Shown: positions 11,991 to 31,502 of the stretch, in pieces
Position numbering within the stretch: position 1 is the first letter of the stretch
Layout: each line of letters opens with the position of its first letter
DNA from: a virus
Length of the DNA stretch: 32,008 bases
IMG/VR virus record: IMGVR_UViG_3300007554_000011
Location: 1 to 32,008 of that record
Direction: 5' to 3' (one strand)
Notes under the pieces: model-generated
What the model was told of the DNA's origin: nothing
Seen by the model: the letters and a program-made list of their open reading frames with translations, nothing else
Databases searched by the model: none
Translations under genes and position numbers: made by a program

Positions 11991-14900
11991 ATGGCTGTAG
12001 GTCGCATATCGGGTCCGCTCTTGAAGTCGAATCTAATTCGTAATGGAATAGATTTAGCTTTTGAGACTGACTTATTATATTTAGATGTCAACAATCAGCG
12101 TATTGGGATTAACACCAATGCTCCTTCACACGATTTACACGTAAACGGTACAACACGCACAACAAACTTAATAGTAGATAATATTGCAGAAATTGCAGAT
12201 ATTACTATTTCTGGTAACACAATACAAAGTGCTAATACACTTAATCTTCTTACTACAGGATCAGATAGTGTTGTATATCAAAGACAGTTAGACATTCAAA
12301 GCATATCAATTTTTGATAATGTTATCAACACCAACGACTCAAATGCAAACTTAGAATTAAGACCAAATGGAACTGGACAAGTTGAAGTATTTTCAAACTT
12401 AGAAGTTAATGGTGATATCCATGCAACCGGTAATATTAGTGCAGACGGTAATATTACACTTGGTGATGCAGATACTGACAATGTTACATTCAACGCAGAA
12501 GTAGCAAGTGATATTATACCTGATGTTACTGATACATATAGATTAGGTAACTCAACTAAGCGTTGGGATCAAGTTTGGGCAAACACTGTAAACGCAGACA
12601 CTGTAAACGCAGACAGTTTAGTACTAGATGGTATAGACATGACATTGCGTCAAGGCAACATTTTTTATGTTGCTAAAAATGGCGACGATGCTAGAACAGG
12701 AACACATCCACAAGATCCATTCCTTACTATTGGGCAAGCAATAACAGCTGCATCAACTGGCGACACAATTTACATTTACCCAGGTGCTTACGAAGAGATA
12801 TTTCCACTTACAATTCCGGTAGGAGTAACAGTAAAAGGCCACTCATTAAGAAGTGTTACAATTACACCTACATCCGGTACAAATACAAATGATGCATTTT
12901 TACTTAACGGTGAAACAACTGTTGAAGATGTAACAATAAAAGATTTTTATAGCCCAGGCTATGCATTTAAATATGCAAACAATATGCTTGTTTCAAGCAG
13001 AAGTCCATACATAAGAAACGTAACGGTTATTACAAAAGGTAGTGTATTAACAGCAGAAGATCCAAGAGGCTTTAATCAAGGCGATGCAGGTGCAGGTGCA
13101 TACTTAGATGGCAGTGTTGTTAACGCAAGTTCAAAAGAAGCAAGTTGCTTATTTCATGCTGTAACATTTATTACACCAGGCGTTGATACATTAATAGCAA
13201 CAAATGGTGTTAGAATAGAATGGCTAAACTCATTTACATACTTTGCTAACAAAGGCTTGTACGCATTAGACGGAACAGCAGGAAAGTATAACGATGGTAA
13301 AACTAAAGTTAGACTTGGCGGCATAGCTGGAGGGTCGTTCGGCGCAGGCGACACAATTACATTTACATCAACAGATACTTCGACAACTATTGTTGTTACA
13401 GCAGAAAGTGTTGACAACGACATTATTGTAATTGATGGCAAAAATATACAATTTATAGATTTTGATACAACGCCACAAAGTATTTCAAATGGTGCAGGCG
13501 TAACAGCAACAACAATTTTAAATCATGATGTAAGAGACTTTGGTGCTGAAATACGTATGATTGGTAGTGCTAGTGTTTATGGCAACTACGGTTTATATGG
13601 TGACGGCCCAGGTGTTATAGTTTACGCTATCGGACAAAACTTAGCGTACATTGGTAATGGTAAAGAAGTTACTAATGATGCAGGTACTGTATTACAAGAC
13701 AACGAAGTAATAGAATTAAATGATGCTAAGATAAGATTTAACACAGTTGACCACAAAGGTGATTTTAGAGTAGGTGATCTATTTTACGTAAACCAAGATG
13801 ACGGTACTGTAAACTTTGTTGCAAATGCACTTAATGTAGACTTAACACAAGGAGTTACATTTACAAGTGGCGGCAACTCAACGTTTGTAAGCGGTGATAG
13901 AATTGACACTGGTAACTTGCGTATTAGCGGAAATACTATTGAAAGTTTAGCTGGTAATATTAATATTAATCCACTTACACAAACATTAAACTTAAACAGT
14001 GACGTAAATGTTGCAGGTAGTTTAGATGTAACTGGTAATGTTACAATCGGCGGAAACATTACAATAGGTGACGAAGCAAGTGATACAATACAAATTATAG
14101 CAGGCATTGACAGTGATCTAATACCAAACATTGATACAGCATACAACTTAGGTGCTGATAATAAAATGTGGAAGTGGTTGTATGCAAATGGCGCTGACAT
14201 GGGCGACATTAGAATTACAAACAACTTTATAGAAACTACAGTTTCAAATGCAGATTTAGAATTACGTGCTAGTGGAACAGGTAGAGTTTTAGTTCCTAGT
14301 GCAGACGTAGAAATATCAGGTGAGCTTTCAGTAGGCGGCGACAGTGTTTTACAAGATGTAGACATCCAAGGCGACCTAACTATTACAGGTAACATTGTAC
14401 AAACAGGTGACCAAACAGTTATTGGTGATGTTAACGTAGGTGCTGATCTTACTGTTACTGGACAAGCACAATTTGAAGAAATATTAATTAACGATAACTT
14501 TATTACAACTACTTCAAGTAATACAGATTTAGAACTTCGTACTAATGGCACAGGCGAAATATTAATACCAAATGATAATTTTAGAATTAGCAATAATTTA
14601 TTTGCTAACGCTATAGAAGCAAACACATTAATTGGAACTACAATTGATGCGACAAACTTTACAAATAGCACAATTGATATTAATAACAATAATATTACTG
14701 TATTAACACCAAATACAGATCTTAATATTGATGCGGCTGGCTCCGGTGATGTTAAAATTAATGGCAGTGATGTTGTTATAGAACAAAACTTAACAGTCAA
14801 CGGCACAACTAATTTAAAAGATACAACTGTTAACGGTAGCATTACGCATGTTGGAAATGTTACACAAACAGGCAATTTTAATATTGCAGGCGAAATAAGC

Positions 14901-17642
14901 AACGGCAATATTTTAATTGAAGACAATTTTATAACAACCACTGACAGTAACAGTCCATTAGAACTACGTGCAAACGGAACAGGAGAAATACTTGTTCCTA
15001 ATAACAACGTACAGATTAATAATGACCTTACAGTAAGTGGCGACACTGATTTGCAAGATACTGTAGTAAACGGAACATTTACACTAACAGGTGATTTTAA
15101 TCAAACTGGTGACAGTAATATTACTGGTGATGTTAATATTACACAAAACTTAGATGTGTCGGGCCAAGCACAGTTTGAAGAAATATTAATTGATGATAAT
15201 TTTATCACAACAACTACTTCAAACACTGATTTAGAATTACGTGCTGTAGGAACTGGCAAAGTTCTTGTACCAAATAATGATGTAGAGATTACTAATGATG
15301 TAACTGTAGGCGGCACACTAACTGTTAATGATATTACAAGTACAGGTACAATTACAGCAAATAGATTTACTACTGGTGATATATTAATTGATGATAATTT
15401 TATTACCACAACACAAAGTAATAGCAATTTAGAATTACGTGCAAACGGTACAGGCGAAATAATTGTACCTAGCAATGATGTAACATTTAATAATAACATA
15501 GATGTTATAGGTTTGTCAACACTTGCTGACACAACTATCAATGGAACACTACAAGTAACTGGCAATGTAACACACACTGGTAATATACAAGTACTTGGCA
15601 CATCAACACTTGATAGTATTATTGTTAATCAAAAATTACAACTTGAAGAAATATTAATTGACGATAACTTTATTACAACTACTACTTCAAATGCAGATTT
15701 AGAACTACGTGCAGCTGGCACTGGTAAAGTTATTGTTCCAAATGACAACGTAGAAATTACAAACGATCTTGATGTTAACGGAACATTTACTGTTAACAAT
15801 ATTACAAGTACAGGAACAATTGTAGCAAATAGTTATTCAACTGGTGACTTACTAGTAGATGATAACTTTATTACTACAACTTTAAGTAACAGTAATTTAG
15901 AACTTCGTGCTAATGGCACTGGAGATGTTTTAATACCAAATAATGATGTTACAATAGATAATACCTTAAATGTTGACGGTATAACAACTCTTGCAGCAAC
16001 TACAATTAACGGAGTAGTTACAGCCTCTAGCGATGTAGATGTAAACGGAGACTTTACAGTTAATGGTAACCATTCTATTACAGGTGGCACATTTATTAAC
16101 GGTACAGCACAATTTGAAGATATACAAATAGCTGGCAATGTTATCCAAACAACTGAAAGTAACAGTGATTTAGAAATTAGAACACAATCTGGTCAAGATA
16201 TTTTAATACCAAATAGTGATGTAAGCGTAACTGGCGACTTAACTGTTAGCGGACAACTTACTGTTGGTGATATTCAAAGCACAGGCACTATTGAAGCAAA
16301 TAACTTTACTACTGGCGATGTATTAATTGACGATAACTTTATTACAACTACAACGTCTAACAGCGACTTAGAGCTACGTGCTAATGGAACTGGTAAAGTA
16401 GTAGTACAAGACAATTTACAAGCAACACAAGACCTTACAGTAAGCGGAACGACTACTTTAAACAGTACTGTAGGCATAAACGGAACGCTTACACATGTAG
16501 GCAATACTGTACAAACAGGAAACTTTACACAAACAGGTACAACTGATGTTACTGGTAACTTAACTGTTACTGGGGATGCTGATTTTGAAGGCATAGCAAT
16601 ATCAGGTAATACTATTAGTGGCACACAATCAAATGCAAATTTAGAAATTAAAACATCAGGTACTGGAGATATACTATTTCCAAACAACGATTTACAAGTT
16701 ACAAATGACTTTGTAGTTGGCGGCACACTAACTATTGGCAATTTAACAGCATCAGGAACAATTGAAGCACAAAAGTTTTCAACTGGTGATATATGTATCG
16801 ACGATAACTTTATTACAACTACATTAAGTAATAGTAACTTAGAGTTACGCACAGCAGGAACAGGCGCTGTCCTTATTGATGACTTTGATATTAATGGAAG
16901 CACACTATCAACAAGTAGTACTTTAACTATAAGTCCTGATACTGGTTATACAAATTTTACTGGTACTGGCGCAATTAATATTCCAGTTGGTACAACTTTA
17001 CAAAGACCAGCAAGCGTTACACTTGGCCAAATTAGATATAACCAAGATTTAAATAGATTTGAAGGGTATAACGGAACTAATTGGATTATACTACAAGGTG
17101 TTGAAGATTTAGACGGCGATACAAAAGTTACAGCAGAACTAGTTGAAGGCCAAAATGATAATATTATTAGATTCTATACACAAGATACTGTAAGAGCTAA
17201 TATTGATTCAAATAGATTTTATGCAGATAGATTTGCTGTTGATGATGTACAAATTGAGCAAAATACAATTAGTACAATTACAACAGATCAAGATTTAATA
17301 TTAAGTGCGGCTGGAACTGGTAGAGTTGTAATAGAGAATTTTGCCTTCGATGGCAACAGGATAATAAATACAGTATCGAATAGTATAACTCAATTTGAAA
17401 ATACAAATAACGGTTATGTCAAGTTTGCTGGAACAGGCGGACTTGTTATACCAAGTGGTACTAGTGCAGAAAGACCTGCGGTGGCTTACAGAGAAGTAGG
17501 CATGACCAGGTTTAACACTGAAGACGACAGAGTTGAAGTATTTGATGGCATAAACTGGGCATCTTCAGCTGGTGCGGGTTCAGGTATTAATCCTGCCGAC
17601 GCAGCAGATTTAGCAATTGAAACAGTTTTATACTTAGGATAA
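11991..17642 (+). CDS. Giant tail-fibre/adhesin B, paralogue of A (1883 aa)
   Basis: Starts VGRISGPLLKSNLIRNG and DLAFETDLLYLDV, the same anchor as fibre A. Residues about 222-610 are a pectin-lyase-like beta-helix (FYVAKNGDDARTGTHPQDPF, GDTIYIYPGAYEE, SRSPYIRNVTV), ending with DHKGDFRVGDLFYVNQDDG. Unlike A it has an insertion of about 80 residues near 434-517, Thr, Asp and Ile rich. From about 740 to 1640 come about 12 copies of DDNFITTT.SN.DLELRA.GTG, the last eight in strict long/short alternation. The C-terminus repeats RYN-type modules (about 1678, and GTSAERPA near 1824) and ends ETVLYLG. A role as host-binding fibre is inferred. TAA is followed after 3 bases by the next ATG. Confidence 0.85.
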   Translation: MAVGRISGPLLKSNLIRNGIDLAFETDLLYLDVNNQRIGINTNAPSHDLHVNGTTRTTNLIVDNIAEIADITISGNTIQSANTLNLLTTGSDSVVYQRQLDIQSISIFDNVINTNDSNANLELRPNGTGQVEVFSNLEVNGDIHATGNISADGNITLGDADTDNVTFNAEVASDIIPDVTDTYRLGNSTKRWDQVWANTVNADTVNADSLVLDGIDMTLRQGNIFYVAKNGDDARTGTHPQDPFLTIGQAITAASTGDTIYIYPGAYEEIFPLTIPVGVTVKGHSLRSVTITPTSGTNTNDAFLLNGETTVEDVTIKDFYSPGYAFKYANNMLVSSRSPYIRNVTVITKGSVLTAEDPRGFNQGDAGAGAYLDGSVVNASSKEASCLFHAVTFITPGVDTLIATNGVRIEWLNSFTYFANKGLYALDGTAGKYNDGKTKVRLGGIAGGSFGAGDTITFTSTDTSTTIVVTAESVDNDIIVIDGKNIQFIDFDTTPQSISNGAGVTATTILNHDVRDFGAEIRMIGSASVYGNYGLYGDGPGVIVYAIGQNLAYIGNGKEVTNDAGTVLQDNEVIELNDAKIRFNTVDHKGDFRVGDLFYVNQDDGTVNFVANALNVDLTQGVTFTSGGNSTFVSGDRIDTGNLRISGNTIESLAGNININPLTQTLNLNSDVNVAGSLDVTGNVTIGGNITIGDEASDTIQIIAGIDSDLIPNIDTAYNLGADNKMWKWLYANGADMGDIRITNNFIETTVSNADLELRASGTGRVLVPSADVEISGELSVGGDSVLQDVDIQGDLTITGNIVQTGDQTVIGDVNVGADLTVTGQAQFEEILINDNFITTTSSNTDLELRTNGTGEILIPNDNFRISNNLFANAIEANTLIGTTIDATNFTNSTIDINNNNITVLTPNTDLNIDAAGSGDVKINGSDVVIEQNLTVNGTTNLKDTTVNGSITHVGNVTQTGNFNIAGEISNGNILIEDNFITTTDSNSPLELRANGTGEILVPNNNVQINNDLTVSGDTDLQDTVVNGTFTLTGDFNQTGDSNITGDVNITQNLDVSGQAQFEEILIDDNFITTTTSNTDLELRAVGTGKVLVPNNDVEITNDVTVGGTLTVNDITSTGTITANRFTTGDILIDDNFITTTQSNSNLELRANGTGEIIVPSNDVTFNNNIDVIGLSTLADTTINGTLQVTGNVTHTGNIQVLGTSTLDSIIVNQKLQLEEILIDDNFITTTTSNADLELRAAGTGKVIVPNDNVEITNDLDVNGTFTVNNITSTGTIVANSYSTGDLLVDDNFITTTLSNSNLELRANGTGDVLIPNNDVTIDNTLNVDGITTLAATTINGVVTASSDVDVNGDFTVNGNHSITGGTFINGTAQFEDIQIAGNVIQTTESNSDLEIRTQSGQDILIPNSDVSVTGDLTVSGQLTVGDIQSTGTIEANNFTTGDVLIDDNFITTTTSNSDLELRANGTGKVVVQDNLQATQDLTVSGTTTLNSTVGINGTLTHVGNTVQTGNFTQTGTTDVTGNLTVTGDADFEGIAISGNTISGTQSNANLEIKTSGTGDILFPNNDLQVTNDFVVGGTLTIGNLTASGTIEAQKFSTGDICIDDNFITTTLSNSNLELRTAGTGAVLIDDFDINGSTLSTSSTLTISPDTGYTNFTGTGAINIPVGTTLQRPASVTLGQIRYNQDLNRFEGYNGTNWIILQGVEDLDGDTKVTAELVEGQNDNIIRFYTQDTVRANIDSNRFYADRFAVDDVQIEQNTISTITTDQDLILSAAGTGRVVIENFAFDGNRIINTVSNSITQFENTNNGYVKFAGTGGLVIPSGTSAERPAVAYREVGMTRFNTEDDRVEVFDGINWASSAGAGSGINPADAADLAIETVLYLG
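14477..16880 (+). repeat. Long/short super-repeat array of fibre B
   Basis: Unit starts near 14908, 15178, 15378, 15648, 15845, 16117, 16318, 16587 and 16789. The spacing is 270, 200, 270, 197, 272, 201, 269 and 202 bases. Long units (about 90 aa) end with a segment like SGQAQFEE; short units (about 67 aa) end with NRFTTGD-like segments. The super-unit of about 470 bases (157 aa) occurs four times in a row. Confidence 0.9.
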
Positions 17643-17645
17643 TAA

Positions 17646-17975
17646 ATGGCAACGATATTTAAAAATAAGGTTATAAAAGATGTAGGTACTAAACCTATCG
17701 ACATCATTGAAACCAATTCATCAACTCGTGTAACAGTAATAGGATTAAGTTTAACAAATCTTACAGACAGTTTTGTTTATGTAAGTGTGTTAATCAAAGA
17801 CGATACAAGTATATCGGGTTATTATATAAAAGACTCTTTATTACCAGCAAACACAAGTTTGCGGGTAGTAGCAACAGGCGAAAAATTAATTGTTGCACCT
17901 GATAACTGCGTACAAGTAGTTTCTAGTGTAGACGATGCTGTTGATGCAATAGCAAGTTTTGTGGAGATAGTGTAA
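17646..17975 (+). CDS. Small beta-rich virion protein (109 aa)
   Basis: It starts MATIFKNKVIKDVG and is predicted all beta. The pattern TRVTVIGLSLTNLTDSFVYV, a central strand pair, then EKLIVAPDNCVQVVSS and a final hydrophobic strand matches the layout of the 123-aa protein at 5372 and the 106-aa protein at 31518. It has one cysteine and no signal peptide or membrane segment. The gene lies 3 bases after fibre B and its stop overlaps the next start (TAATG). Its placement right behind a giant fibre is shared with the 106-aa gene behind fibre D. It may cap or attach the fibre; that is inference. Confidence 0.65.
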   Translation: MATIFKNKVIKDVGTKPIDIIETNSSTRVTVIGLSLTNLTDSFVYVSVLIKDDTSISGYYIKDSLLPANTSLRVVATGEKLIVAPDNCVQVVSSVDDAVDAIASFVEIV

Positions 17976-18418
17976 TGAGTCATTATATAGGAAGCAATCC
18001 AACAGACGTAGCAAACGGATTTATCAAAAGATATTTTTACGGTTTACGTAGAAATGACGATGGCGAACTGTTTTTAGTTAGAGTTGACCAACTTGCAGGC
18101 GGAGATACAAATAGTATTACAATTAACGATTTAGGTATATCAGAAGAAAACTTCTTAGACTTTGAAGAAGGCATTGATTACTTAGACGGCATTAATGAAA
18201 GTAAAGATATTGTTTATCCAAATTTACGCTATCCACAACTACGTTGGGACGGCAGAAGTTTAACATATTATATCGAAGATGGCACAGGACATTTTGTACA
18301 GGCTGTAAGTGAAAAAGTAACTTTTGAAAATAATATTTCGTCTCCAGCATACGGTGATGGAAATGATAATCAGGTATTAATTCCTGGACAAACCGGTGGA
18401 CCAGGACCAGGATACTAG
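17975..18418 (+). CDS. Virion structural protein, unrecognised family (147 aa)
   Basis: It starts MSHYIGSNPTDVANGFIKRY and is translationally coupled to the preceding gene through TAATG. The body has acidic and aromatic strands (NLRYPQLRWDGRSLTYYIED near 82-101), and the last residues are a Gly/Pro tail (PGQTGGPGPGY). No catalytic motif, cysteine or membrane segment is visible. It ends with TAG 11 bases before fibre C, whose ribosome site GAGGA overlaps this end. The start resembles the beginnings of small structural proteins in marine T4-like phages. Its role in the fibre apparatus is inferred from position only. Confidence 0.6.
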   Translation: MSHYIGSNPTDVANGFIKRYFYGLRRNDDGELFLVRVDQLAGGDTNSITINDLGISEENFLDFEEGIDYLDGINESKDIVYPNLRYPQLRWDGRSLTYYIEDGTGHFVQAVSEKVTFENNISSPAYGDGNDNQVLIPGQTGGPGPGY

Positions 18419-18429
18419 AGGAAAAATAA

Positions 18430-21400
18430 ATGGCAGAATTTAAACTAGAACGCTTCAAATATACATGGAAAGGTGAATGGATCGCAGGCACCGTATATAA
18501 GCGTGATGACATTGTAAGAGTTGGCGGTAAATCATATGTATGTTTAGAAGGACATACAGCTGATGCTAAATTCAAAACTGACTTACTTGCAGTATTAGAA
18601 GGAAGTAATCCACCACAAGCGGCACCAAGATGGCGCTTAATGACAGATGGTAGATCTTATAAAGGTCAATGGGCTACAGCAACAACATATGCAATTAGTG
18701 ATATTGTTGAAAAAGATGGCTCGCTTTGGGTTTGTGTTAACGAACATGATTCTACAAATTTTGTTACAAACAAAGATGATTGGGCATTACTAGTATCACA
18801 TATAAAATATACAACTGAATGGGCAACAGCAACTGATTACGGTCCTGGTGCATTAGTAAAATATAACGGTATAGTTTATAAGTGTATTGAGCCGCATGTA
18901 TCAGGTTTATTCTTAGAAGATAACTTAGTAACAACACCAACAAATGTTAATGTTACTGTTGTAAGAAACGCAGAAGATACAGAAAACGTATACGCACTTA
19001 ACGGAATACCACAAGCAGAGCTTACCCTTGCTAAAGGTAAAACATATGTGTTTGATCAAAGTCCTCCAGAAGACGGAGACGATACAAACTTATTTTTCGG
19101 CGGCGGTGTAGATGCTAGTAACAATCCTATTCAAAATCCACATCCATTTTTATTAAGTTTAACCGAAAACGGTTTACATAATAGTGGCGTAGTTTACAAT
19201 GAAGGTGTAAAATATTACCTAAACGGTAACGAAGTTACACAATCATTATATGTTTCGAACTTTGCAATTGCTACAACACGACAAGTACATTTTAGTGTGC
19301 CTTACACAGCACCTACGCCAGTGTATTACTTTTGCAGATATCATGCACCAATGGGCGCAGCATTTACAATTGATACATCGGCAGATATTGCATGGGAAGT
19401 TTTCCATAGCGGCATTGAGTATGCAGGTGCATGGGCAAGAGAAACATTATATAGAAAAAATGATTTAGTATTATACGGTGGTAGTATTTGGAAATGTACA
19501 GAAACACACCAATCTGCAGCTGTAGGGCTTTTAGATGAAAATGGTAAATTAGCAGATCAGTTAGATACTACAAAATTTAATATAGAACTTCCAGGCTTTC
19601 AATACGAGTCAGAATGGTCTGATACAGCAGAATATCAACCAGGTGACGTTGTGCGTTATGGCGGTTACTTATACTTTGCTTCTAAGTACAATAGAGACGA
19701 ACAACCAGCGCAATCGCAGGATAGTACAAAGAGTTGGGTAGAATTACAATACGGATACAATTTTGTAGGTGATTGGACAGAAGGCGCAGAATACAATCCA
19801 GGTGATATGGTATTACGCGGTGGCGAGCTATATATGGCTAGAGTGTCTATTGGTGCTAGTGAAGAAGACGGAAGTACATCAGACTATTTACAAACTGAAA
19901 AATGGGAATTAGTTATTCCAAGTAAAACTTGGGGAGAAGCTTGGATAACAGGTAGAAGATACTTTGTAGGCGAAGTAGTTTATCACTTTGGTGATGCATA
20001 TGTATGTAATCAATATCATGTTGGTTCAAATGACAACTTCCCAGGCGATAACGGTAGTGGATATTTTTATTGGGATTTATTAATACAAGCAGGTCAAGTA
20101 TCAGGTTTATCAGCAAAAAGTGATTTACTTACATTTAACCTAAGCAGAACTAACGTTGGTGACGGAAGTACTATAGGACCAACATCAGTACCAATTGGCA
20201 GACCAGATCAACTGTTATCAGTAGACGGCGAAGACAATGTATTTTGGAAAGATTACTTACGTACAGCAGGCGAAATATTTGTAGGTACTCACGGTATGGA
20301 TACAAGAGGATATGGACTATCACCAGATAAGCCATTTAGATCTGTTAGATTTGCTGCTGAATATGTTGAAGCAACATTCCCTGCACTAACACCAATTAAA
20401 ATTAAAGTTAATACAGGGAGATATGTCGAAATAGGGCCTATTAGTATTCCAGCAGGCGCTGTTGTAATGGGCGATGAATTACGTTCAACAACCATTGTTG
20501 CTAATCCTCCACTCGATGATTACCAAAATGAAACAATACAACTTGAAGGAATGTGGGATTATTTTGCTAGTACACTGTTAAGTTTATTATCAAATGTAGA
20601 TGTTCCTGCATTGCCTGGCAACAACGAAATACAAAAGAAAGATGCAACAATTTTAGGTCTTTCAGAAAACAACATAATATTAGGGTTAACTGATATTATT
20701 AAACAAAAAATCGAATTCAATGCAGGAAGTGGCTCTATTGATCCAGTAATAACATCAACTAATATAATATCAGCTGATAGTCAAAGAAGACAAGCTGCAT
20801 CAAAATTAGAACTTGTAGGACCATTTTTATCACAACAAGTTGATGCATGGGCTAGACAAACATACCCAGACAAAGTATATAGAACAAACAGAGTAGCTGA
20901 AGACTTTGCACATTTTATTGCTGCTATAGTATATGATTTACGATACGAAGGTACTTATAAATCAGTATTATCAGGAGAACGTTATGCAGCAGCAATTACT
21001 GGTAGTAACTTATTAGACTTATTTAGATGTAGAGATACAACTGGTGTACGTAATACAACACTAGAAGGTTTAGACGGTTCTCTTAATCCTCCGGGCGTGT
21101 TTGACTTATACCAGCGTCCAACGTCGGGTGCATTTACAGCACTTGATCCGGGCTGGGGTCCAGCAGACGAACGTACATGGATTATGAAACGTTCACCTTA
21201 CATACAAGGCAATACTACAATTGGAGCTGCGTGTACAGGTATGCGAGTAGACGGTTTATTACATAATGGTGGTAACAAGTCTATGACAGCAAATGATTAT
21301 ACACAAGTACTAAGTGACGGTATTGGTGCATGGATATCAGATAATGGCAGAGCAGAGCTTGTGTCAGTGTTTACATACTACAACCAAGTTGGATACTTAG

Positions 21401-24400
21401 CAGAACGTGGCGGAGTTATTCGTGCAACAAACGGTAACAACTCATATGGTGCATATGGTTCAATTGCAGATGGAATTGATCCTAACGAAGTACCATTAGT
21501 TGCAGAAGTATTTAATAGAGATAACGAAGCAACTGTTTCAGGAGTTTATGCTGGAGCGTTTGGTGATGAGATCTTTGTATATGAATATGAAAACGCAGGC
21601 GAAGGATACACAACAGCATCTAGTACAATAGTTGGCGCAGGTGCAAATGCAGCTGTAATACATGAAGATATACGTCATGGATCACTATTCCAATCAAGAA
21701 TTGTTAATCCTGCAGACAGTGGATCAGTAGGCGGCGTAGGTTATACTAACGTTCAGAATCAAGCAACACAGGGCGATACAACATCAATTACATTAAATCC
21801 AAACGAAACGTCAACAGCCGCTGAGCTTGTAGGACAAGCAATATATATTATTTCAGGTACTGGTACAGGACAGTATGGTTACATACAAGCATACAATGAA
21901 CTAAACAGTACAGCAACAATTTACAAAGAAAGCGTACCTAACACTCCAGGATGGGATCATGTATTAGCAGGAACAGCAATAGAAGCTACTCTAGAATCTA
22001 ATACAAGATATCAAATCGAACCCAGAATAACATCATCTAAGCCTGACTTTACAGCAAACAATTATAACGTTTCGTCTGGTAGAGACATTATTGATATTGC
22101 ATTTAGTAATACAACATTTGAGTTTACTGATATTCCAGGAACACCAGGAAGTGGTATTGTTGAACAGCAAGACGGACTAGCGCCTGCAAACGCAGTGTTT
22201 GATATTACTAAGAATGGACTAGTGTACGAAGTAACTGTAACTGATGGCGGCTTAGGTTATGCCGTTGGTGACTCAATTGATATTTTAGGTAGTGTATTAG
22301 GTGGCGAAGATATTACTAACGACTGTCATATTAAAGTTGCTAGTGTTACTGACGATAGTTCAAACTCAATTGTAACTATTGTTGTCACAGGTAAAGGCCG
22401 TAGTGGTAAATTTGTTGCAATTGCAAAACCAAACTTTGTACTAGAAAGTGATACAGGACAAGGATGGAACGAAGTATTGTTACCGAACCAAGGAGCAATT
22501 GACTGGATTAAAGTAAGAGCAGGCAACAATAGATTTGTTGCTATTGCAAAAGGAACCGACGAAGCTGCTTACAGTTTAAACGGAACTGCTTGGACATCAG
22601 TTACATTACCATTCGATGAGGAATGGGTAGATTTAGAATTTGGCGAAGGACGATTTGTTGCTATTGCAGAAAACTCTACTACAGTAATTCAGTCATCAGA
22701 CGGTATTACTTGGACATCAAGCAATATGCCTAATGATGCTGTTGGCGATAGTGCTTCAGCAGAATGGCAAGCAATGACATATGGCAAAGGCAAATTTGTT
22801 GCTGTTGCAGGCAATGACGGCACTGTAGGACACAGTACAGACGGCACATCATGGACATTTGATAGTGGCTTTGTAGCAACAGAAAATTTACAAGTTGCAG
22901 GTTTAGCATATGGTAATAATAGATATCTTGCACTATTAGAAACAGGTGAAACATACTATAGCTTCGACGGATCAGTTTGGACACAAGGTACAGATGTTCC
23001 TTCACAAGATGGTTCAACAGTTATGCGTTGGAACGATATTAAATTTGCAGAAGGCGTATTCATGGCAATATGTGATGCAAACAATCAATTAGTAGGCGGC
23101 GACCTTAACGGCAACGACACAAACTTTGCTGCAACAACTGAAGACGGTATAGTATGGCAAGGCAGAACATTAGCTTCAACTAAGCCGTATTATGGTATAG
23201 GATTTGGTGTAGTTAATGATATAGGTAGTTGGATTATAGGTACAAAGAATATTCAAATTGGTGCAATTGCTAAAGTTGAAACAGGTGCTCAAGTTAAAGT
23301 AAGAGCAAGACTAGGAAGTGGCGGACTAATACAAACTATTAAAATACTAGATCCAGGTAGTGGATACACACAAGCAAATCCTCCAGTATTTACAATTACA
23401 GATAATAAGTTTACAGTAGGCATTGGTTGGGAAAATAGAGTAGGCTCAGGTGTACTTGCACAGCCAAGTTGGGTAAACAGAGGTATTGGATATAGATCAA
23501 GTACTACTAAAGTTACTGTAACAGGTGACGGTTATGCAGATAATATACCAGATACAAATATTATTAAGATATCAGGATTGCCTCGTGTACCAACAATTGG
23601 TAGTCAATTACTGTTTCCAATAATTGAAGATGATAACACTGAAGATCCAAATGATTTAAAGAGTTATCGTGTAGCTATAGCAACTGACTTAGGCGACGAC
23701 GGCACAGGTAATGGTACAAGACTTGTACAATTCCAAATTAGTCCACGTATGCGTAATGAAAATGATTTAGTTCACGGAACGTCAGTTACTATTAATGAAA
23801 ACTTTAGTCAGTGTCGTATTACAGGACATGACTTCTTAGACATTGGTACAGGTAACTTTATAGAAACTAACTATCCAGACATTTACGCAGGCGGTAACTA
23901 CTTTACAAGTGCTCCTGAAAACGAAGTATATGAAACAGCTGGTGGACGTATATTCTATGTAAGTACAGACCAAGATGGTAACTTTAGAGCAGGTGAATTG
24001 TTTAGTGTGCAACAGGCAACTGGTGTTGTTACAATTAGTGCTGAGTTCTTTGACTTAGATGGTCTATCAGAATTATCACTAGGTGGTGTTAGACTTGGTG
24101 GTTCAGGCGCTGTTGTTAGAGAGTTTAGTACAGACCCAACGTTTGCTGAAGACTCAAACCAAGTTATTCCAACACAAAGAGCTATTGCTACATTCTTAGC
24201 AGATAGACTAAGTGTTGGTGGATCTGACTTAGAGCTTAACGCTTTCCAAGCAGGGCAAATATATGTTGGCGGACCAGAAAACCAAATAGACAACATACAA
24301 AATAAAATAATAAACGTAGCTGTTCCAGTATATGTACCAGGAGCAGACGCATTAGGAAACCCAGCAGGATTAAGCGGATCATATGTTGGACAGATGTTAT

Positions 24401-24432
24401 TACTTCGTAACTTTGACGAGAGCATGAAGTAA
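18430..24432 (+). CDS. Giant adhesin C: CBM-like modules, cupredoxin-like insert, beta-helix, Asp-box repeats (2000 aa)
   Basis: Order of parts. Three modules of the type W......Y..GD.V...G..Y.C...H (about 8-165). A cupredoxin-like domain (about 172-318, His238, Cys302, His305, Met308). Four more modules (about 328-535). A beta-helix from about 615 (EIFVGTHGMDTRGYG), broken by a helical insert (697-897) and resuming with DPGWGPADERTW near 906. Asp-box repeats (SSDGITW, STDGTSW, SFDGSVW) at about 1322-1609. A C-terminal part with GSGYTQANPP, STDQDGNFRAGELF (about 1845) and IPTQRAIATFL (about 1913), shared with fibre D. The modules resemble CBM5/12 folds that bind polysaccharide; Asp boxes occur in sialidase-like propellers. 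No catalytic residues were identified, so binding rather than cleavage is the likely role. Confidence 0.85.
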   Translation: MAEFKLERFKYTWKGEWIAGTVYKRDDIVRVGGKSYVCLEGHTADAKFKTDLLAVLEGSNPPQAAPRWRLMTDGRSYKGQWATATTYAISDIVEKDGSLWVCVNEHDSTNFVTNKDDWALLVSHIKYTTEWATATDYGPGALVKYNGIVYKCIEPHVSGLFLEDNLVTTPTNVNVTVVRNAEDTENVYALNGIPQAELTLAKGKTYVFDQSPPEDGDDTNLFFGGGVDASNNPIQNPHPFLLSLTENGLHNSGVVYNEGVKYYLNGNEVTQSLYVSNFAIATTRQVHFSVPYTAPTPVYYFCRYHAPMGAAFTIDTSADIAWEVFHSGIEYAGAWARETLYRKNDLVLYGGSIWKCTETHQSAAVGLLDENGKLADQLDTTKFNIELPGFQYESEWSDTAEYQPGDVVRYGGYLYFASKYNRDEQPAQSQDSTKSWVELQYGYNFVGDWTEGAEYNPGDMVLRGGELYMARVSIGASEEDGSTSDYLQTEKWELVIPSKTWGEAWITGRRYFVGEVVYHFGDAYVCNQYHVGSNDNFPGDNGSGYFYWDLLIQAGQVSGLSAKSDLLTFNLSRTNVGDGSTIGPTSVPIGRPDQLLSVDGEDNVFWKDYLRTAGEIFVGTHGMDTRGYGLSPDKPFRSVRFAAEYVEATFPALTPIKIKVNTGRYVEIGPISIPAGAVVMGDELRSTTIVANPPLDDYQNETIQLEGMWDYFASTLLSLLSNVDVPALPGNNEIQKKDATILGLSENNIILGLTDIIKQKIEFNAGSGSIDPVITSTNIISADSQRRQAASKLELVGPFLSQQVDAWARQTYPDKVYRTNRVAEDFAHFIAAIVYDLRYEGTYKSVLSGERYAAAITGSNLLDLFRCRDTTGVRNTTLEGLDGSLNPPGVFDLYQRPTSGAFTALDPGWGPADERTWIMKRSPYIQGNTTIGAACTGMRVDGLLHNGGNKSMTANDYTQVLSDGIGAWISDNGRAELVSVFTYYNQVGYLAERGGVIRATNGNNSYGAYGSIADGIDPNEVPLVAEVFNRDNEATVSGVYAGAFGDEIFVYEYENAGEGYTTASSTIVGAGANAAVIHEDIRHGSLFQSRIVNPADSGSVGGVGYTNVQNQATQGDTTSITLNPNETSTAAELVGQAIYIISGTGTGQYGYIQAYNELNSTATIYKESVPNTPGWDHVLAGTAIEATLESNTRYQIEPRITSSKPDFTANNYNVSSGRDIIDIAFSNTTFEFTDIPGTPGSGIVEQQDGLAPANAVFDITKNGLVYEVTVTDGGLGYAVGDSIDILGSVLGGEDITNDCHIKVASVTDDSSNSIVTIVVTGKGRSGKFVAIAKPNFVLESDTGQGWNEVLLPNQGAIDWIKVRAGNNRFVAIAKGTDEAAYSLNGTAWTSVTLPFDEEWVDLEFGEGRFVAIAENSTTVIQSSDGITWTSSNMPNDAVGDSASAEWQAMTYGKGKFVAVAGNDGTVGHSTDGTSWTFDSGFVATENLQVAGLAYGNNRYLALLETGETYYSFDGSVWTQGTDVPSQDGSTVMRWNDIKFAEGVFMAICDANNQLVGGDLNGNDTNFAATTEDGIVWQGRTLASTKPYYGIGFGVVNDIGSWIIGTKNIQIGAIAKVETGAQVKVRARLGSGGLIQTIKILDPGSGYTQANPPVFTITDNKFTVGIGWENRVGSGVLAQPSWVNRGIGYRSSTTKVTVTGDGYADNIPDTNIIKISGLPRVPTIGSQLLFPIIEDDNTEDPNDLKSYRVAIATDLGDDGTGNGTRLVQFQISPRMRNENDLVHGTSVTINENFSQCRITGHDFLDIGTGNFIETNYPDIYAGGNYFTSAPENEVYETAGGRIFYVSTDQDGNFRAGELFSVQQATGVVTISAEFFDLDGLSELSLGGVRLGGSGAVVREFSTDPTFAEDSNQVIPTQRAIATFLADRLSVGGSDLELNAFQAGQIYVGGPENQIDNIQNKIINVAVPVYVPGADALGNPAGLSGSYVGQMLLLRNFDESMK
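18460..20030 (+). repeat. Seven CBM5/12-like modules of adhesin C
   Basis: Each module is 30-35 residues at its core: an aromatic pair, W, six to eight residues, Y, (G/D)D(I/V)V, (Y/G)GG, Y.C and often H. Examples are YKGQWATATTYAISDIVEKD and YNFVGDWTEGAEYNPGDMVL. Modules 1-3 and 4-7 are separated by the cupredoxin-like domain. The pattern matches small carbohydrate-binding modules by eye. Confidence 0.7.
18943..19383 (+). other. Cupredoxin-like domain inside adhesin C
   Basis: Residues about 172-318. The segment has a strand entry (VYALNGIPQAELTLAKGKTY), a histidine in NPHPFLLS (His238) and, after further strands, VYYFCRYHAPMGAAF with Cys302, His305 and Met308. The spacing C-x2-H-x2-M plus an upstream His is the type-1 copper ligand set. 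The domain is absent from the paralogue D. Metal binding is inferred from the ligand pattern and not shown. Confidence 0.6.
22395..23255 (+). repeat. Asp-box propeller-like repeats of adhesin C
   Basis: About six repeats of (N/G).(R/K)FVA(I/V)A ... (S/T).DG..W...... LP. Examples are NRFVAIAKGTDEAAYSLNGT, GRFVAIAENSTTVIQSSDG and GKFVAVAGNDGTVGHSTDG. The SxDGxxW part is the Asp box known from sialidase-type beta-propellers. Six or seven repeats would suit one closed propeller. Confidence 0.7.
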
Positions 24433-24482: not shown

Positions 24483-27400
24483 ATGGCAGAATTTAAACTA
24501 GGTAGAATCAGGTTTGTGTGGAAAGACGCATGGACTTCTGCCAACACATATTATAAAGACGATGTTGTAAGGTTCGGGGGCAAAGTATATATTTGTGTGA
24601 TTGGTCATACAAGTGCTTCGGAATTCTTTACAGACTTTGAAATAGTACCACCTAAGTGGAACTTAGTGAGTGACGGTCAAACGTGGAAAGGTAGCTGGAC
24701 AATAAGTACAGGTTACGTATACGGTGACATAGTTCAATACGGTGCTAGACTATACATTTGTTCAGTAGTACATACATCACAAGCAACAGTAGCAGCTGGC
24801 TTAGAAGCTGATATTTCAAATTGGGAAATATATGCTGAAGGGCTAGAATGGAAAGGCGACTGGACAGTAGATACAAAATATCTTATTAACGATTTAGTAA
24901 AATATGGTGGACAAACTTATGTTTGTAAAGTTTACCATACATCTGCAGCAACACTAGCCGACGGGTTAGAACTTAACCAATCTAATTGGGATGTCTTTAA
25001 TGCTGGCATCGAATACAAAAGTTCATGGTCCGCTGGTACAAGATATAAAGTAAATGATGTAGCACAATATGGTGCAGCTCTTTGGATTTGTACAGCAGAA
25101 CATACAGCGGCAACATTGTTTAGTACAAACAACGCAAATTGGGAACAATTTGTAAGAGGCTTCCAGTTTGAAGCAGATTGGGAAGCATTAAGAAATTATC
25201 AAAAGGGTGATATTGTAAGATACGGTGGTAACCAATATATTGCTCTAACTAATCATGCAGAAAAGAATCCAGTAGTTGAAACAACAGACTGGCAACTATT
25301 TACACAGGGTTTAAGATTCTTAGGCGACTGGCAAGATGATAGTACTCTACAAGATTATAGAGTTGGTGAAGTTGTAAGATACGGTGGCTACACTTATTTG
25401 TGTATAGCAGATCATCAAAATGAAACACCAACAAACACAACATACTGGCAACGACTAAACACTGGTTTACGTTGGAGAGGCGCATGGGTAGATGATGTAG
25501 AATACTTACAAGGTGACGTTGCACGTTATGGTGATAACTCATATGTTTGTGTATTAGGTCACTTCTCAGAAGGCGATGACTTTTCGACTATTCAAGTTGG
25601 CGCAGGCGGTGGTGGTAATCAAAACTCACGTCCAGACTTAGATGTAAACGGCACTTACTGGCAAGTAATTGCTATTGGTAATGAAGCAAGTGTACTAACT
25701 ACAAAAGGTGATTTAGTATACTATGCAGGAAGTGGTCCTGCAAGATTACCAGTTGGCGCTGAAGGACAATTTTTACAAGTAAGTTCAAACAATACTCCGG
25801 AATGGGCATATTCAGGTGTAGCAGATGATATTTATTATGTTGCAACACACGGTACTGATGCTCCGAGTCCTACTAACGGACGCTCGCTTGATAAGCCTTG
25901 GAAAACAATTAGATATGCAGCAGAGCAAGTTGGTGCAGGTGCAAAAAATCCTAATGCTAAATCTATTTTAGAACTTAATAGATATTTCATACAACGTGAA
26001 ATGGTTGAATGGACAGATGCACAAATTACAGGTAATATAACACCATTTACTACAGGCTTTGACTATGATAGTGCAAAGTGTGAAAGAGATATGGGTTACA
26101 TTGTTGATGCACTTATCCACGATATCACACATGGCGGAAATGTTAAATCAAGAGAAGCTGCTTTATCGTATGTAAATGACACAGTAGGATCTCCGTACTT
26201 AACACAAAAAACTCAAACAGTAGCAACTATAAATCACGGATTGACAGTTATACAAGCAGTACTTGCACAAACAGCACCAGCTGTAAACTATCAAGTTAAC
26301 AATGGTGATAATTCAACAGCAGTTGTTGCACAATACTTTAATGCAACCTTAACAGCAGAAAGTGTGTATGCTGAAATAACCGGCCTTACAAAAATTATCA
26401 CAGATGCTATTACAGCAGGCGTTGCTACAGACATTCCAGCTAGATTAATTAGAAATACATTAATTAAAGTTTCAACAGGAAAGTATTACGAAGTACTTCC
26501 AATTATTGTTCCAGCAGAATGTTGTATTATAGGCGACGAACTTCGTGCAACACAAGTGCAACCAAGAAAATCAAATAATTCAACACTTACAACAGCTGAA
26601 GATTACTTGTATAGTAATACAGCAATTGAAAGAGTAGAAGCAATTATTGGTGACATTGTTGAAGGTGTTTCAGTAACAGCAACAACAGGAAATGCACAAT
26701 CACAAAGTGCTTTGTATCCGTTAACAAACAACGAAACTGGTTATGTAAGATCAGCTGTTGAACAGTTAGCAAGACTATATAGACGTAGAACAGATTGGTC
26801 ATTGGGCAGAAAAGAAGAAGCTATTGCTACATTTACATTAGCAGACGAAATGACTGATCCAGCAGATGGATATGCAAGAAACTTATTAATTGCTAACAGA
26901 GATTTTTTAAGAGCAGAATTAGTTGGATATATTACAGAAAACTATCCAGATCTAAAATATAGTAAAACAGCATGTAAGAAAGATGTTGGGTACTTAGTTG
27001 ATGCTGTGTCATATGACTTAACATACGGTGGTAACTGGCAAACAGTTAATGCTGGTGAAGCATATCATGTTGGTGCAAGTTCAAACTTACCAGCTGCACA
27101 GAAAGCGGCAACACTAGCAGCTTACGGTTACTTAAAAGGTATTATGCAAACTGTAGGTAGAAACATTACAGTTACTCCAGGTACACAGTCTGCATTTTCA
27201 CAGATACCAGGTACAGCAGGAGACGCTGGAAGTGCAACTGCAATTGGCGCACTACTAGATGACTTTATTAACATAGTTGATAACGGTACTGGAAGTGAAA
27301 CAATTACATATCCAAGTATTACTGGTGCAGCGGCAGGACTACAAACTGACCATTCACTATTAGGATCAGCAGCTTCAACAGTTAAAACAGCTACAACAAA

Positions 27401-30400
27401 CTGGATCACAGCAAACTTTCCAAACTTAACTTACGATAGTGCAAAGTGTGAAAGAGATGTTGGATACTTATTAGATGCAGCAAGATACGATTGGTGTTTA
27501 GGTACAACATTTGCATCAACTGTAGCGGCAATAAGTTACTTAAGAAAGCCAAGTGCTAAAGTAACAGGTGTACAAAAAGATGCTACACTAGGAAGTTACG
27601 AGTTTGCAAGAAATGCAGCAAGAGCTGAAGTTTCAGAAGCAATAAGTTTAGCACAGATTAACAATACATTTGTTACAACTAATGATATAATATTAGGTGG
27701 AAGTAACGAAGGTACTAACCGTGCTACTGATCAACAAGATGTGTATGCAGGTATACAACAATTAGAACTTAACAAAGAGTTTATAGCAAAAGAAGCTGTT
27801 GCATATGTAAATGATTATTATGCAGATACAGTTACAGCAACAACAGCATCAAGCGGTGCATTAACAATTACAACTACAGGATGGTTGAGACAAAATAGAC
27901 CAATCAAATTTACTGGTGTTGGAACAGAGGTCGGCGGACTAGCATTAGACACTACTTACTATGTTAAAAACATTCTAAGCTCAACAACATTCACTATTAG
28001 TGCAACTATTGGTGGAGCAGATATTGTTGTAACTGACGATACAGGTGCAATGAGTGTTGAAAAAGATTACGAATATAATGTAGCACTTTGTGAAAGAGAT
28101 ATTAAATCAATTCTAAGTGCTATGCAATGGGATCTAAAATTTGCTCCTAATTATAGAAGAACATATACAGGCGGGATTAGTTTAACTATTCCGGCAACAT
28201 ATAAAACTAGATATGCTTCTAGATATTATGTAAATGCTGTAATAGGGTCACAAGAAGAAGATTTCTACTACTTACGTAACGGTACAGGTTTAAGATTACA
28301 AACAATGGAAGGCCTAAACGGTGACATGACTGCAGAAACAACTGCAGGTACAAGTAGAATGACAGCTGGTGCTTATGCATCACTAGATCCAGGTTGGGGT
28401 CCAGATGATACTAGAGTTTGGATTACAGCACGTTCGCCATACGTACAGAACTGTACAACATTTGGTAACGGTGCAACTGGTCAACGTATTGATGGTAACT
28501 TACATAATGGCGGCAACGATTCAATTGTTAGTAATGACTTTACACAAGTTATTAGTAACGGTATCGGCGCACACATTCTTAACAACGGTAGAGCAGAACT
28601 TGTATCAGTGTTTACATATTACGCACACATAGGTTATCTAGCAGAAACAGGTGGGCGTGTACGTGCAACAAACGGTAACAACTCATACGGTGACTTTGGT
28701 TCAGTAGCAGAAGGCGTTGATCCAGATGAAACACCAACAAGTGGTATTGTTGATAACAAAACACAATACAATGCTACAATAGCATCAGCTATTACTGACC
28801 AAGATAAAATACTCACAGCAGAATTTACACATACTGGTAACGATTATACAGATGTTAACTTTAACGTGTTTGGCCCAGGTACAGGCGAAGAAGTAATTGG
28901 TGATGAATTTAGAGACGAAGCACTAATACAAGCTCGTGTTATTGATGATGCTGTAGACGGTGATGCAGGTGGTACTGGTTACTTAACAGCTGGTAATACA
29001 GCACAGGACGGTAACGCAACAAGTATTACACTTTCAGCAACAGACGGCAACTTAAACACTTCATATCCAGGTATGAAAGTACTTGTTGTTGGTGGCGCAG
29101 GTGCAGGATTATATGCTTTAATTAATACATATGATGCAGGTACAAAAGTAGCAACAGTAGTTAAAGAATCAGACGGTACAGCAGGTTGGGACCATTTTGT
29201 TCCAGGCACAACACTTGTTACACCAAACGCTTCGTCAACTTATGAAATTGAGCCAGCTGTATCATTTAGCGCACCAACAAAAACTACAACAGATGCTTCA
29301 ATAGGATCAAACGTTTATGAAGACTTTGGATTCTTTGAAACATCACAACAAGTTAACAACCAAGCAGCTACTACATATACAGGTGCAGGTTCAAACGCTA
29401 CATTTAATGTTGATAGAGTTGGATCTAAGTACTATGTAGCACTTAATAGTGCAGGTGCTGACTATGTAAGATTAGAAACTATTACTATAGCAGGTACATC
29501 GTTAGGCGGAGTAAGTCCTGCTAACGATCTAGTAATTACACTTACTTCAATAGGAGCAACTGGTAATGTTATTGATTTTGACTTTACAGGTATTGGTCGC
29601 AAGGGTGCTTATGTAGCATTAAGCGATGATACATCAGCAGCTTTAAGTTATGATTCATCAACATGGTCTAATGCAACACTACCACAACAGAGTGATAGAT
29701 TTTCATCAGGACTATTAGATGACGGAAGTTCATTATATAAATCAAGTGCATTTGTTGCTGTAGCAACAGGATCAAGTACAGCGGTGCTAAGTGAAGACTT
29801 AGCAACATTTAGTACATCAGCTTTACCAGGAGGGTTAGACACTTCAACTGGTGTTGATGTACAATACGGATACTTAGGTGCAGGTACAAACAGATTTGTT
29901 GTAATTGGACAAAACGATACAGACATTGCTTATTCAGACAATGCTGGATCAAGTTGGACAATAACAAGTTCTGCTTTACCTAACACAGGATTTACTAGTA
30001 TTACTAACGGTATGGGACTATTTGTTGCTGTACGTACAGGATCTAATCAAGTAGCTTACAGTGCAGACGGTATTGCTTGGACAGCAACTACATTGCCAGC
30101 AAGTTTAAACTGGAGCAAAGTTGTTTGGGGTAATGGTAGATTTATTGCAATAGCAAATAATAGTGTTAATGCAGCTTATAGCTTAGACGGCATTAACTGG
30201 ACAGCAACTACAATTGCTACTGAAAGTTCAGCACTACCAACAGACATTGCATACGGACAAGGTATGTTTGTAGTAACAAGTGCAGATACTAATAGTGTAT
30301 GCTATAGTGAATATGGTCTAGTATGGAATAACTTAACTGTTACAGCAAACGTAAGTGGCTACAAGTTAGCAGCGTTTGGTAATCCAGATAGAGAACCGTT

Positions 30401-31502
30401 GTTCTGTACAATAGCAGATGGTACAACAACACAAGTTGCTGTAAGCAAAATTGGTGCTAGAGCACGTGGTAGAGTAAACGTTGCAAGTGAAAAGATATTT
30501 GAAGTTAAACTTGCAGAAGCAGGAAGCGGATACGGCGCAACTCCTCCAACAATTACAATTGGCGATCCAAACAACATTGATGATGTTGTGTTCCAAAATA
30601 GATTAGGCAATGGCGCATTAGGCAATCCTAGTTTTGCAAATAGAGGAACAGGATTTAGTGCAGCAAGTATGGAAGTTGACGGAGCAACATCAAATGGTAA
30701 TGCAGACTTCTTACAAAATGGTAACTTTGTTGCTGTAAGAAGATTAACAGAAAGACCAGTAGCTGGTTCAAACATTACGTTTGCTAGTTTACCTGGACAG
30801 TTCTTTAAGTTGGTTACTGTTGTTAGTTTCCTTGGTACAAACCCAGGATCACATACAGCGTTCTTACAAATTAGTCCAAGCATGACAATAGGAGATGCTC
30901 CTACAGACGGTGACGGCGTAGTGTCAAGAATTAGATACTCGCAAGTACGTTTAACAGGACACGACTTCCTAGATATTGGTACAGGTGGATTTGTAACTAC
31001 TAACTATCCAGGACTACCATTAGAAACTCCAGACCAAACCAAAGAAACACTTGATGTTAACGGGGGACGAGTGTTCTTTACATCAACTGACCAAGATGGT
31101 AACTTTAGAGTTGGTGACTTGTTCCAAATTGAACAGGCAACTGGTGTTGCAAACTTGAATGCAGAAGCATTTAACATTGCAGGTCTACAGGAACTTACAT
31201 TAGGTGAAGTTACACTAGGTGGTAACTCAGCAAGTGTAAGTGAGTTTAGTACTGACCCATTCTTTACAGCCAACAGCGATACAGTAGTGCCAACCCAACG
31301 TGCGATTAAAGCGTACATTGAGGCACAAATTGGTGGCGGTGGTGCCGCGTTGAACGTGAATAGTGTTACAGCTGGTGACATTTTTATTAGTTCAAACATA
31401 ATTACAACGGCAAGTGGAGAGTTGATAAATATTACAGCAAATATGAACTTTACTGGACCAGTTACAGGATATCCTTTAGCGTATCAGTACTTTTTAAGAT
31501 AA
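24483..31502 (+). CDS. Giant adhesin D, paralogue of C (2339 aa)
   Basis: It starts MAEFKLGRIRFVWKDAW, like C (MAEFKLERFKYTWKGEW). Seven CBM5/12-like modules occupy about 8-370 with no cupredoxin insert. A beta-helix begins near 449 (IYYVATHGTDAPSPTNG) and is interrupted by a helical region (about 496-1226). That region contains four repeats around Cys533, Cys831, Cys989 and Cys1203, with the motif C(E/K)(R/K)D...(I/L)(V/L)(D/S)A...D. Near 1118-1195 is an inserted beta segment (PIKFTGVGTEVGGLALDTTY). The helix resumes at DPGWGPDDTRVW near 1303. Asp-box repeats lie at about 1706-1986. The C-terminus has GSGYGATPP, STDQDGNFRVGDLF (about 2201) and VPTQRAIKAYI (about 2269). A polysaccharide-binding tail fibre is the best inference. 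It is the longest gene in the window. Confidence 0.85.
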   Translation: MAEFKLGRIRFVWKDAWTSANTYYKDDVVRFGGKVYICVIGHTSASEFFTDFEIVPPKWNLVSDGQTWKGSWTISTGYVYGDIVQYGARLYICSVVHTSQATVAAGLEADISNWEIYAEGLEWKGDWTVDTKYLINDLVKYGGQTYVCKVYHTSAATLADGLELNQSNWDVFNAGIEYKSSWSAGTRYKVNDVAQYGAALWICTAEHTAATLFSTNNANWEQFVRGFQFEADWEALRNYQKGDIVRYGGNQYIALTNHAEKNPVVETTDWQLFTQGLRFLGDWQDDSTLQDYRVGEVVRYGGYTYLCIADHQNETPTNTTYWQRLNTGLRWRGAWVDDVEYLQGDVARYGDNSYVCVLGHFSEGDDFSTIQVGAGGGGNQNSRPDLDVNGTYWQVIAIGNEASVLTTKGDLVYYAGSGPARLPVGAEGQFLQVSSNNTPEWAYSGVADDIYYVATHGTDAPSPTNGRSLDKPWKTIRYAAEQVGAGAKNPNAKSILELNRYFIQREMVEWTDAQITGNITPFTTGFDYDSAKCERDMGYIVDALIHDITHGGNVKSREAALSYVNDTVGSPYLTQKTQTVATINHGLTVIQAVLAQTAPAVNYQVNNGDNSTAVVAQYFNATLTAESVYAEITGLTKIITDAITAGVATDIPARLIRNTLIKVSTGKYYEVLPIIVPAECCIIGDELRATQVQPRKSNNSTLTTAEDYLYSNTAIERVEAIIGDIVEGVSVTATTGNAQSQSALYPLTNNETGYVRSAVEQLARLYRRRTDWSLGRKEEAIATFTLADEMTDPADGYARNLLIANRDFLRAELVGYITENYPDLKYSKTACKKDVGYLVDAVSYDLTYGGNWQTVNAGEAYHVGASSNLPAAQKAATLAAYGYLKGIMQTVGRNITVTPGTQSAFSQIPGTAGDAGSATAIGALLDDFINIVDNGTGSETITYPSITGAAAGLQTDHSLLGSAASTVKTATTNWITANFPNLTYDSAKCERDVGYLLDAARYDWCLGTTFASTVAAISYLRKPSAKVTGVQKDATLGSYEFARNAARAEVSEAISLAQINNTFVTTNDIILGGSNEGTNRATDQQDVYAGIQQLELNKEFIAKEAVAYVNDYYADTVTATTASSGALTITTTGWLRQNRPIKFTGVGTEVGGLALDTTYYVKNILSSTTFTISATIGGADIVVTDDTGAMSVEKDYEYNVALCERDIKSILSAMQWDLKFAPNYRRTYTGGISLTIPATYKTRYASRYYVNAVIGSQEEDFYYLRNGTGLRLQTMEGLNGDMTAETTAGTSRMTAGAYASLDPGWGPDDTRVWITARSPYVQNCTTFGNGATGQRIDGNLHNGGNDSIVSNDFTQVISNGIGAHILNNGRAELVSVFTYYAHIGYLAETGGRVRATNGNNSYGDFGSVAEGVDPDETPTSGIVDNKTQYNATIASAITDQDKILTAEFTHTGNDYTDVNFNVFGPGTGEEVIGDEFRDEALIQARVIDDAVDGDAGGTGYLTAGNTAQDGNATSITLSATDGNLNTSYPGMKVLVVGGAGAGLYALINTYDAGTKVATVVKESDGTAGWDHFVPGTTLVTPNASSTYEIEPAVSFSAPTKTTTDASIGSNVYEDFGFFETSQQVNNQAATTYTGAGSNATFNVDRVGSKYYVALNSAGADYVRLETITIAGTSLGGVSPANDLVITLTSIGATGNVIDFDFTGIGRKGAYVALSDDTSAALSYDSSTWSNATLPQQSDRFSSGLLDDGSSLYKSSAFVAVATGSSTAVLSEDLATFSTSALPGGLDTSTGVDVQYGYLGAGTNRFVVIGQNDTDIAYSDNAGSSWTITSSALPNTGFTSITNGMGLFVAVRTGSNQVAYSADGIAWTATTLPASLNWSKVVWGNGRFIAIANNSVNAAYSLDGINWTATTIATESSALPTDIAYGQGMFVVTSADTNSVCYSEYGLVWNNLTVTANVSGYKLAAFGNPDREPLFCTIADGTTTQVAVSKIGARARGRVNVASEKIFEVKLAEAGSGYGATPPTITIGDPNNIDDVVFQNRLGNGALGNPSFANRGTGFSAASMEVDGATSNGNADFLQNGNFVAVRRLTERPVAGSNITFASLPGQFFKLVTVVSFLGTNPGSHTAFLQISPSMTIGDAPTDGDGVVSRIRYSQVRLTGHDFLDIGTGGFVTTNYPGLPLETPDQTKETLDVNGGRVFFTSTDQDGNFRVGDLFQIEQATGVANLNAEAFNIAGLQELTLGEVTLGGNSASVSEFSTDPFFTANSDTVVPTQRAIKAYIEAQIGGGGAALNVNSVTAGDIFISSNIITTASGELINITANMNFTGPVTGYPLAYQYFLR
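24504..25590 (+). repeat. Seven CBM5/12-like modules of adhesin D
   Basis: A continuous run of seven modules, e.g. QTWKGSWTISTGYVYGDIVQ, LEWKGDWTVDTKYLINDLVK and LRWRGAWVDDVEYLQGDVAR, each followed by a Y(I/V)C...H ending. The number matches adhesin C, where the array is split 3 + 4. Confidence 0.7.
25970..28160 (+). repeat. Four helical Cys-x-(R/K)-Asp repeats in adhesin D
   Basis: Spaced copies centre on AKCERDMGYIVDALIHD (Cys533), TACKKDVGYLVDAVSYD (Cys831), AKCERDVGYLLDAARYD (Cys989) and ALCERDIKSILSAMQWD (Cys1203). Each is preceded by a helical stretch of the type L..N..FI..E...Y(I/V).......Y. Adhesin C has one degenerate equivalent (VAEDFAHFIAAIVYDLRY) without the cysteine. Confidence 0.75.
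29580..30440 (+). repeat. Asp-box propeller-like repeats of adhesin D
   Basis: Six to seven repeats, e.g. NRFVVIGQNDTDIAYSDN, GLFVAVRTGSNQVAYSADG and GRFIAIANNSVNAAYSLDG, several ending (S/A)DG..WT. They correspond in position to the array in adhesin C. Confidence 0.7.

Follow-up and report, generated by a model that had tools for sequence, protein, structure and literature searches.

The stretch analyzed here, a virus record of 32 kb, is referred to below as the window. Two large paralogous ORFs in it, termed C and D, encode proteins bearing carbohydrate-binding-like modules, and Pfam CBM_5_12 matches seven stretches in each of them. A cupredoxin-like domain lies between the third and fourth modules of C, with three modules preceding it and four following (Table 1). 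The sequence-only reading had placed such a domain at 18943-19383, which corresponds to residues 172-318 of ORF C, and had named His238, Cys302, His305 and Met308 as a set of copper ligands; the interval, all four residues and the position among the modules were confirmed. Its statement that D has seven modules and lacks the domain was borne out as well by the repeat and domain HMMs, as HMM searches including all ORFs of the window returned no match to the domain in D. Beyond the modules, ORF C (aa ~1340-1640, ~22447-23349) and the corresponding region of D carry RFVAIA...YS.DG..W repeats, and a weak beta-propeller match falls within this part of C. Two further long paralogous ORFs, at 6307-11847 and 11991-17642, contain many 'NSNLELRANGTG' repeats and are probable fiber shafts.

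Table 1. Features of ORF C and its paralogue D (coordinates are positions in the window; aa are residues of ORF C unless a protein length is given)
Feature	Position	Strand	Remarks
ORF C, tail adhesin / fiber protein carrying the domain	18430..24432	+	2000 aa; PHROG 9851 'tail fiber protein', E=5.6e-146
CBM5/12-like module 1	18466..18561	+	aa 13-44; repeat HMM
CBM5/12-like module 2	18658..18753	+	aa 77-108; repeat HMM
CBM5/12-like module 3	18808..18903	+	aa 127-158; repeat HMM
Cupredoxin-like domain core	18982..19368	+	aa 185-313; iterated HMM; AlphaFold2 model of aa 170-322
His238, N-terminal putative ligand, HP motif	19141..19143	+	aligned to the first His ligand of plastocyanins
Cys302, invariant, sole Cys of the domain	19333..19335	+	alignment
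His305, invariant	19342..19344	+	alignment
Met308, putative axial ligand	19351..19353	+	Gln in some relatives
CBM5/12-like module 4	19420..19515	+	aa 331-362; repeat HMM
CBM5/12-like module 5	19603..19698	+	aa 392-423; repeat HMM
CBM5/12-like module 6	19762..19857	+	aa 445-476; repeat HMM
CBM5/12-like module 7	19930..20025	+	aa 501-532; repeat HMM
Paralogue D, seven CBM5/12-like modules	24483..31502	+	2339 aa; without the cupredoxin-like domain

The four putative ligands are among the best conserved positions of the domain. In a 59-row alignment of family members Cys302 and His305 do not vary, while His238 and Met308 are conserved at 96% and 89% (weighted), and the four ligand columns take ranks 1, 2, 3 and 5 of 103 by information content. 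The ligand set and order of cupredoxins, H...C-x(2-4)-H-x(2-4)-M, is thus present in the family. A wider tally covered 194 distinct copies or pieces, 147 of them complete; of the latter, 139 have either HCHM (124 copies) or HCHQ (15 copies), one has NCHM, and seven lack the whole set. Replacement of the axial Met by Gln occurs also in stellacyanin. One of the patterns used to recruit copies included the Cys, which biases part of this set; where recruitment relied on N-terminal patterns only, all 24 complete copies keep H-C-H-M (16) or H-C-H-Q (8). The seven Cys-less copies are also without both His residues and are found in at least three protein contexts, including the second domain of the T4-GC399 baseplate protein, PSS2_gp080 and a Verrucomicrobia MAG protein. 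Such joint loss is expected of a metal site, although the retention of the domain without its ligands indicates that copper is dispensable for certain uses. Exactly one Cys is present in 56 of the 59 aligned copies, which makes a role in an intradomain disulfide unlikely. The HxH motif of type-2/3 copper sites in multicopper oxidases was not found in residues 185-313 of ORF C.

Some ORFs carry altered or apparently split copies. In a group of similar 1411-aa ORFs (among them L130, L133 and L145) a second, altered copy at about residues 984-1140 accompanies an intact one; it keeps the first His and the Cys, and its second His is replaced by Glu, Asp or Asn. In the 1734-1738-aa ORFs L124 and L126 the domain is apparently split (aa 653-740 and 1046-1116), with some 300 inserted residues separating the half with the first His from the half with the C-H-M ligands.

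Searches with the window copy as a single sequence against the PDB gave noise alone, and the copy does not match Pfam PF00127 (Copper-bind) at the curated score. With the family profile, pseudoazurins lead the PDB matches by an alignment that runs through C-x2-H-x2-M, and the alignment to a copper oxidase runs through the HP ligand, in each case at weak E values (0.05-0.35). The Copper-bind model is matched weakly by 5 of the 59 members (best 0.0034), and single members match amicyanin and plastocyanin models. A bridging case is the protein PHM2_106 of phage P-HM2, in which one domain clearly belongs to the family and a second one matches Copper-bind at 2e-4. Comparison by hhalign with a cupredoxin alignment gathered from cyanophages and Alphaproteobacteria gave a probability of 77-86%, with the two His ligands and the Cys of the family in register with those of the cupredoxins. 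The score of 34.0 compares with 23.5 +/- 1.2 (maximum 28.3) for 60 shuffles in which the HP and C-H-M blocks were kept, and the reversed profile reached a probability of 1%. When the C-H-M block is left out, an alignment of His on His persists in the N-terminal half, albeit weakly (P 0.011). These shuffles and the P-HM2 copy support a relation with cupredoxins beyond the motif itself. Several other matches were set aside. Those to the SH2 domain of SHP-2 (0.005 with the first profile) disappeared with a broader profile and shared no feature with the family, and those to Pfam TPK_B1_binding, CARDB and Lsr2 were under the cut-off and inconsistent from member to member. A 16-row alignment proved too diverse for scans of the sequence collections.

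Structure prediction and a fold search had been proposed as the check on the cupredoxin assignment. AlphaFold2 modeled residues 170-322 of the window copy with a pLDDT of 86 and a pTM of 0.82. In the model His238 directly precedes a strand, Cys302 ends one, and His305 and Met308 fall in the following loop, the same placement relative to strands as in plastocyanins. Of the top 50 Foldseek matches in the PDB, 48 have the cupredoxin fold (multicopper oxidases, AcoP, rusticyanin, and the A domains of factor VIII, which we take to belong to this fold); the best E value was 1.6e-3, with no match at E 0.001, and query-normalized TM was below 0.5. The check thus favored cupredoxins for the window copy. 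For a compact, shorter relative, modeled with a pLDDT of 93.5, Ig domains matched first and amicyanin appeared at rank 32, so here the two folds, both of which are Greek-key sandwiches, were not separated. Taken by itself, the predicted fold argues moderately for a cupredoxin; the fold search is ambiguous, and it is the sequence evidence that tips the balance toward cupredoxin over Ig. In BFVD the model also matches Pithovirus and Marseillevirus 'beta-sandwich proteins' (A0A481Z6J5, A0A481Z7Q7, A0A481YWX9 and A0A481YVH3; E 1e-5 to 3e-4), which may be cupredoxin-like too.

The domain is widespread among marine phages. By tblastn the window copy matches 282 of 50,697 phage records, cyanophages nearly throughout, and the compact copy as query extends the range to phages of Pelagibacter and Methylophilales and to uncultured marine phages; one scan of IMG/VR for the domain gave at least 600 rows. 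Within the searched records, nearly all members come from marine phages. The carrier genes, from phages of Synechococcus, Prochlorococcus, Pelagibacter and Methylophilales, are annotated as tail fiber, virion structural or baseplate proteins, and include gp9-like connectors, podophage tail fibers, P-HM2 gp7 and a virion structural protein of S-TIM5. The T4-GC399 baseplate protein has two copies, and in PSS2 the domain stands on its own. Copper is not mentioned in any carrier annotation among the rows seen. The domain also lies within PHROGs 708 (baseplate wedge subunit), 677 (gp9-like connector), 27200 and 30742, none of which is described as cupredoxin or copper-binding; no model of Pfam, NCBIfam or PHROGs names it, and no curated family matches the window copy. 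Among open-licence papers we found none that deals with phage tails or virions bearing domains of the cupredoxin, plastocyanin-like or type-1 copper kind, and the PSS2 paper is silent on its copy. The sequence-only reading is supported in seeing a cupredoxin-like domain in this adhesin, although the domain is not peculiar to it but one copy of a marine phage-tail family. Matches also came from bins assigned to SAR11, SAR116, Maricaulis and others. These were not accepted as cellular copies; one of the contigs equals a viral contig of IMG/VR in length, and infected cells or misbinned phage are the likelier sources. The major capsid protein of the window (2530-3708) is nearest to those of the T4-like jumbo phages Phosso, Vibrio 2.275.O, Erwinia SNUABM and BF (67-70% identity) rather than to those of cyanophages, yet the tail module is one common to cyanophages.

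Orthologues of C and D with 81-89% identity occur on two other contigs, with the same presence and absence of the domain, which shows that the difference between C and D predates these contigs. The earlier proposal that C gained the domain or D lost it holds as to the difference, with the qualification that this difference is old. A change among closer relatives is seen at the 147-aa gene that precedes C (17975-18418). Its counterpart in G150 (L260) shares the N-terminal part and has an extra C-terminal cupredoxin-like domain with HCHQ, while the counterpart in G152 resembles the window version. The module is mobile, having been gained or lost between close relatives at this gene. Overall, the domain is best read as an interchangeable accessory module, inserted in or appended to tail-fiber, gp9-like connector and baseplate proteins, and its occurrence among the tail proteins of phages that infect four host groups argues for a general tail function.

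Compared with known cupredoxins, the family is closest to PF00127, above all to pseudoazurin and amicyanin, with which it shares the ligand order H...C-x2-H-x(2-4)-M and a profile similarity in register; the C-x2-H-x2-M spacing of amicyanin is identical to that of the phage domain. PF00127 proteins, however, are small secreted electron carriers with HN after the first His, whereas the phage domain has HP and, in the window, is embedded in a 2000-aa tail protein. The type-1 domains of multicopper oxidases (such as 6xiz and 6vox) are the top fold matches and have the G-K-x-Y-x-F...H-P stretch in common with it, but the phage domain has a shorter C-H-M loop, lacks the type-2/3 HxH ligands and gives no sign of oxidase activity.

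The occurrence in a phage tail protein of a cupredoxin-like domain with the full type-1 ligand pattern, and its absence from paralogue D, are supported by these results. We consider it likely that residues 185-313 of ORF C form an interchangeable cupredoxin-like tail module that probably binds copper at a structural or adhesive site. The segment is predicted to fold as a cupredoxin-like beta-sandwich in which His238, Cys302 and His305, with Met308 as axial ligand, would form a type-1 copper site; judging from ligand conservation, such a site appears to be kept in most copies, that of the window included. The most likely predicted roles for the copper are to make the domain rigid or to create a copper-dependent contact patch, which would adjoin the CBM5/12-like modules in contact with the cell surface. 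The cytosol in which phage proteins fold is reducing and poor in free copper, and for this reason loading of the site once the cell has lysed, and not before, seems a reasonable guess. The role would be structural or adhesive and not electron transfer, for which we know of no partner here.

The conserved residues might instead be inherited and hold no metal in the virion, the domain being purely a beta-sandwich spacer used in the manner of Ig-like accessory domains, which are common in tail proteins. The persistence of ligand-less copies in the T4-GC399 baseplate protein and in PSS2 would fit such a spacer, as would the resemblance of the compact copy's Foldseek matches to Ig domains. A mere spacer would not, however, be expected to lose its ligands jointly, nor does it account for the Cys, two His and Met being among the best-conserved columns in marine phages that infect four host groups, and we regard it as unlikely, if with some standing. 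Occupation of the site by another metal (Zn or Fe), or use of the Cys for a covalent link, seems extremely unlikely. Cys and His bind Zn as well, and the identity of the metal is beyond the reach of sequence; but within a cupredoxin-like fold His...Cys-x2-His-x2-Met corresponds to the copper pattern of amicyanin, a Zn site with Met or Gln as its fourth ligand would be unusual, and most copies have one Cys only.

Tail copper could also be offered to an outer-membrane metal receptor or redox protein of the host. The nearest published idea is the Ferrojan Horse hypothesis, in which iron at HxH sites of tail fibers is recognized by siderophore receptors (PMC11705849). The HxH sites for iron in T4 gp37 and in the tail fibers of marine phages are likewise metal sites on a tail, but differ from the phage domain in fold, in ligands and probably in metal. 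Besides this precedent, a copper version would agree with the presence of the domain in distal tail proteins, beside carbohydrate-binding-like modules, and with the finding that, among the searched records, members come almost solely from marine phages. It has no known receptor, though, the hosts are diverse, and many copies reside in baseplate wedge and connector proteins rather than at fiber tips, so that we judge it very unlikely. A broader speculation, in our view decidedly unlikely, is that marine phage virions carry several type-1 coppers on their tails and use them in infection, either as bait for metal receptors or as a contact signal in which copper would be reduced or captured at the host surface; if virions did carry this copper, phages would also represent a seawater reservoir of copper in complexed form.

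The known roles of cupredoxins are those of small electron carriers and of oxidase domains. A cupredoxin-like module serving as a tail building block in phages of Synechococcus, Prochlorococcus, Pelagibacter and Methylophilales would put the fold to a new use, and would provide a concrete copper counterpart to the idea of iron in tail fibers. A domain that has gone without a label in proteins annotated as 'tail fiber', 'baseplate wedge' and 'virion structural' gains a name and a testable site, and copper binding by virions becomes a testable property of a domain that is present in hundreds of ocean phages.
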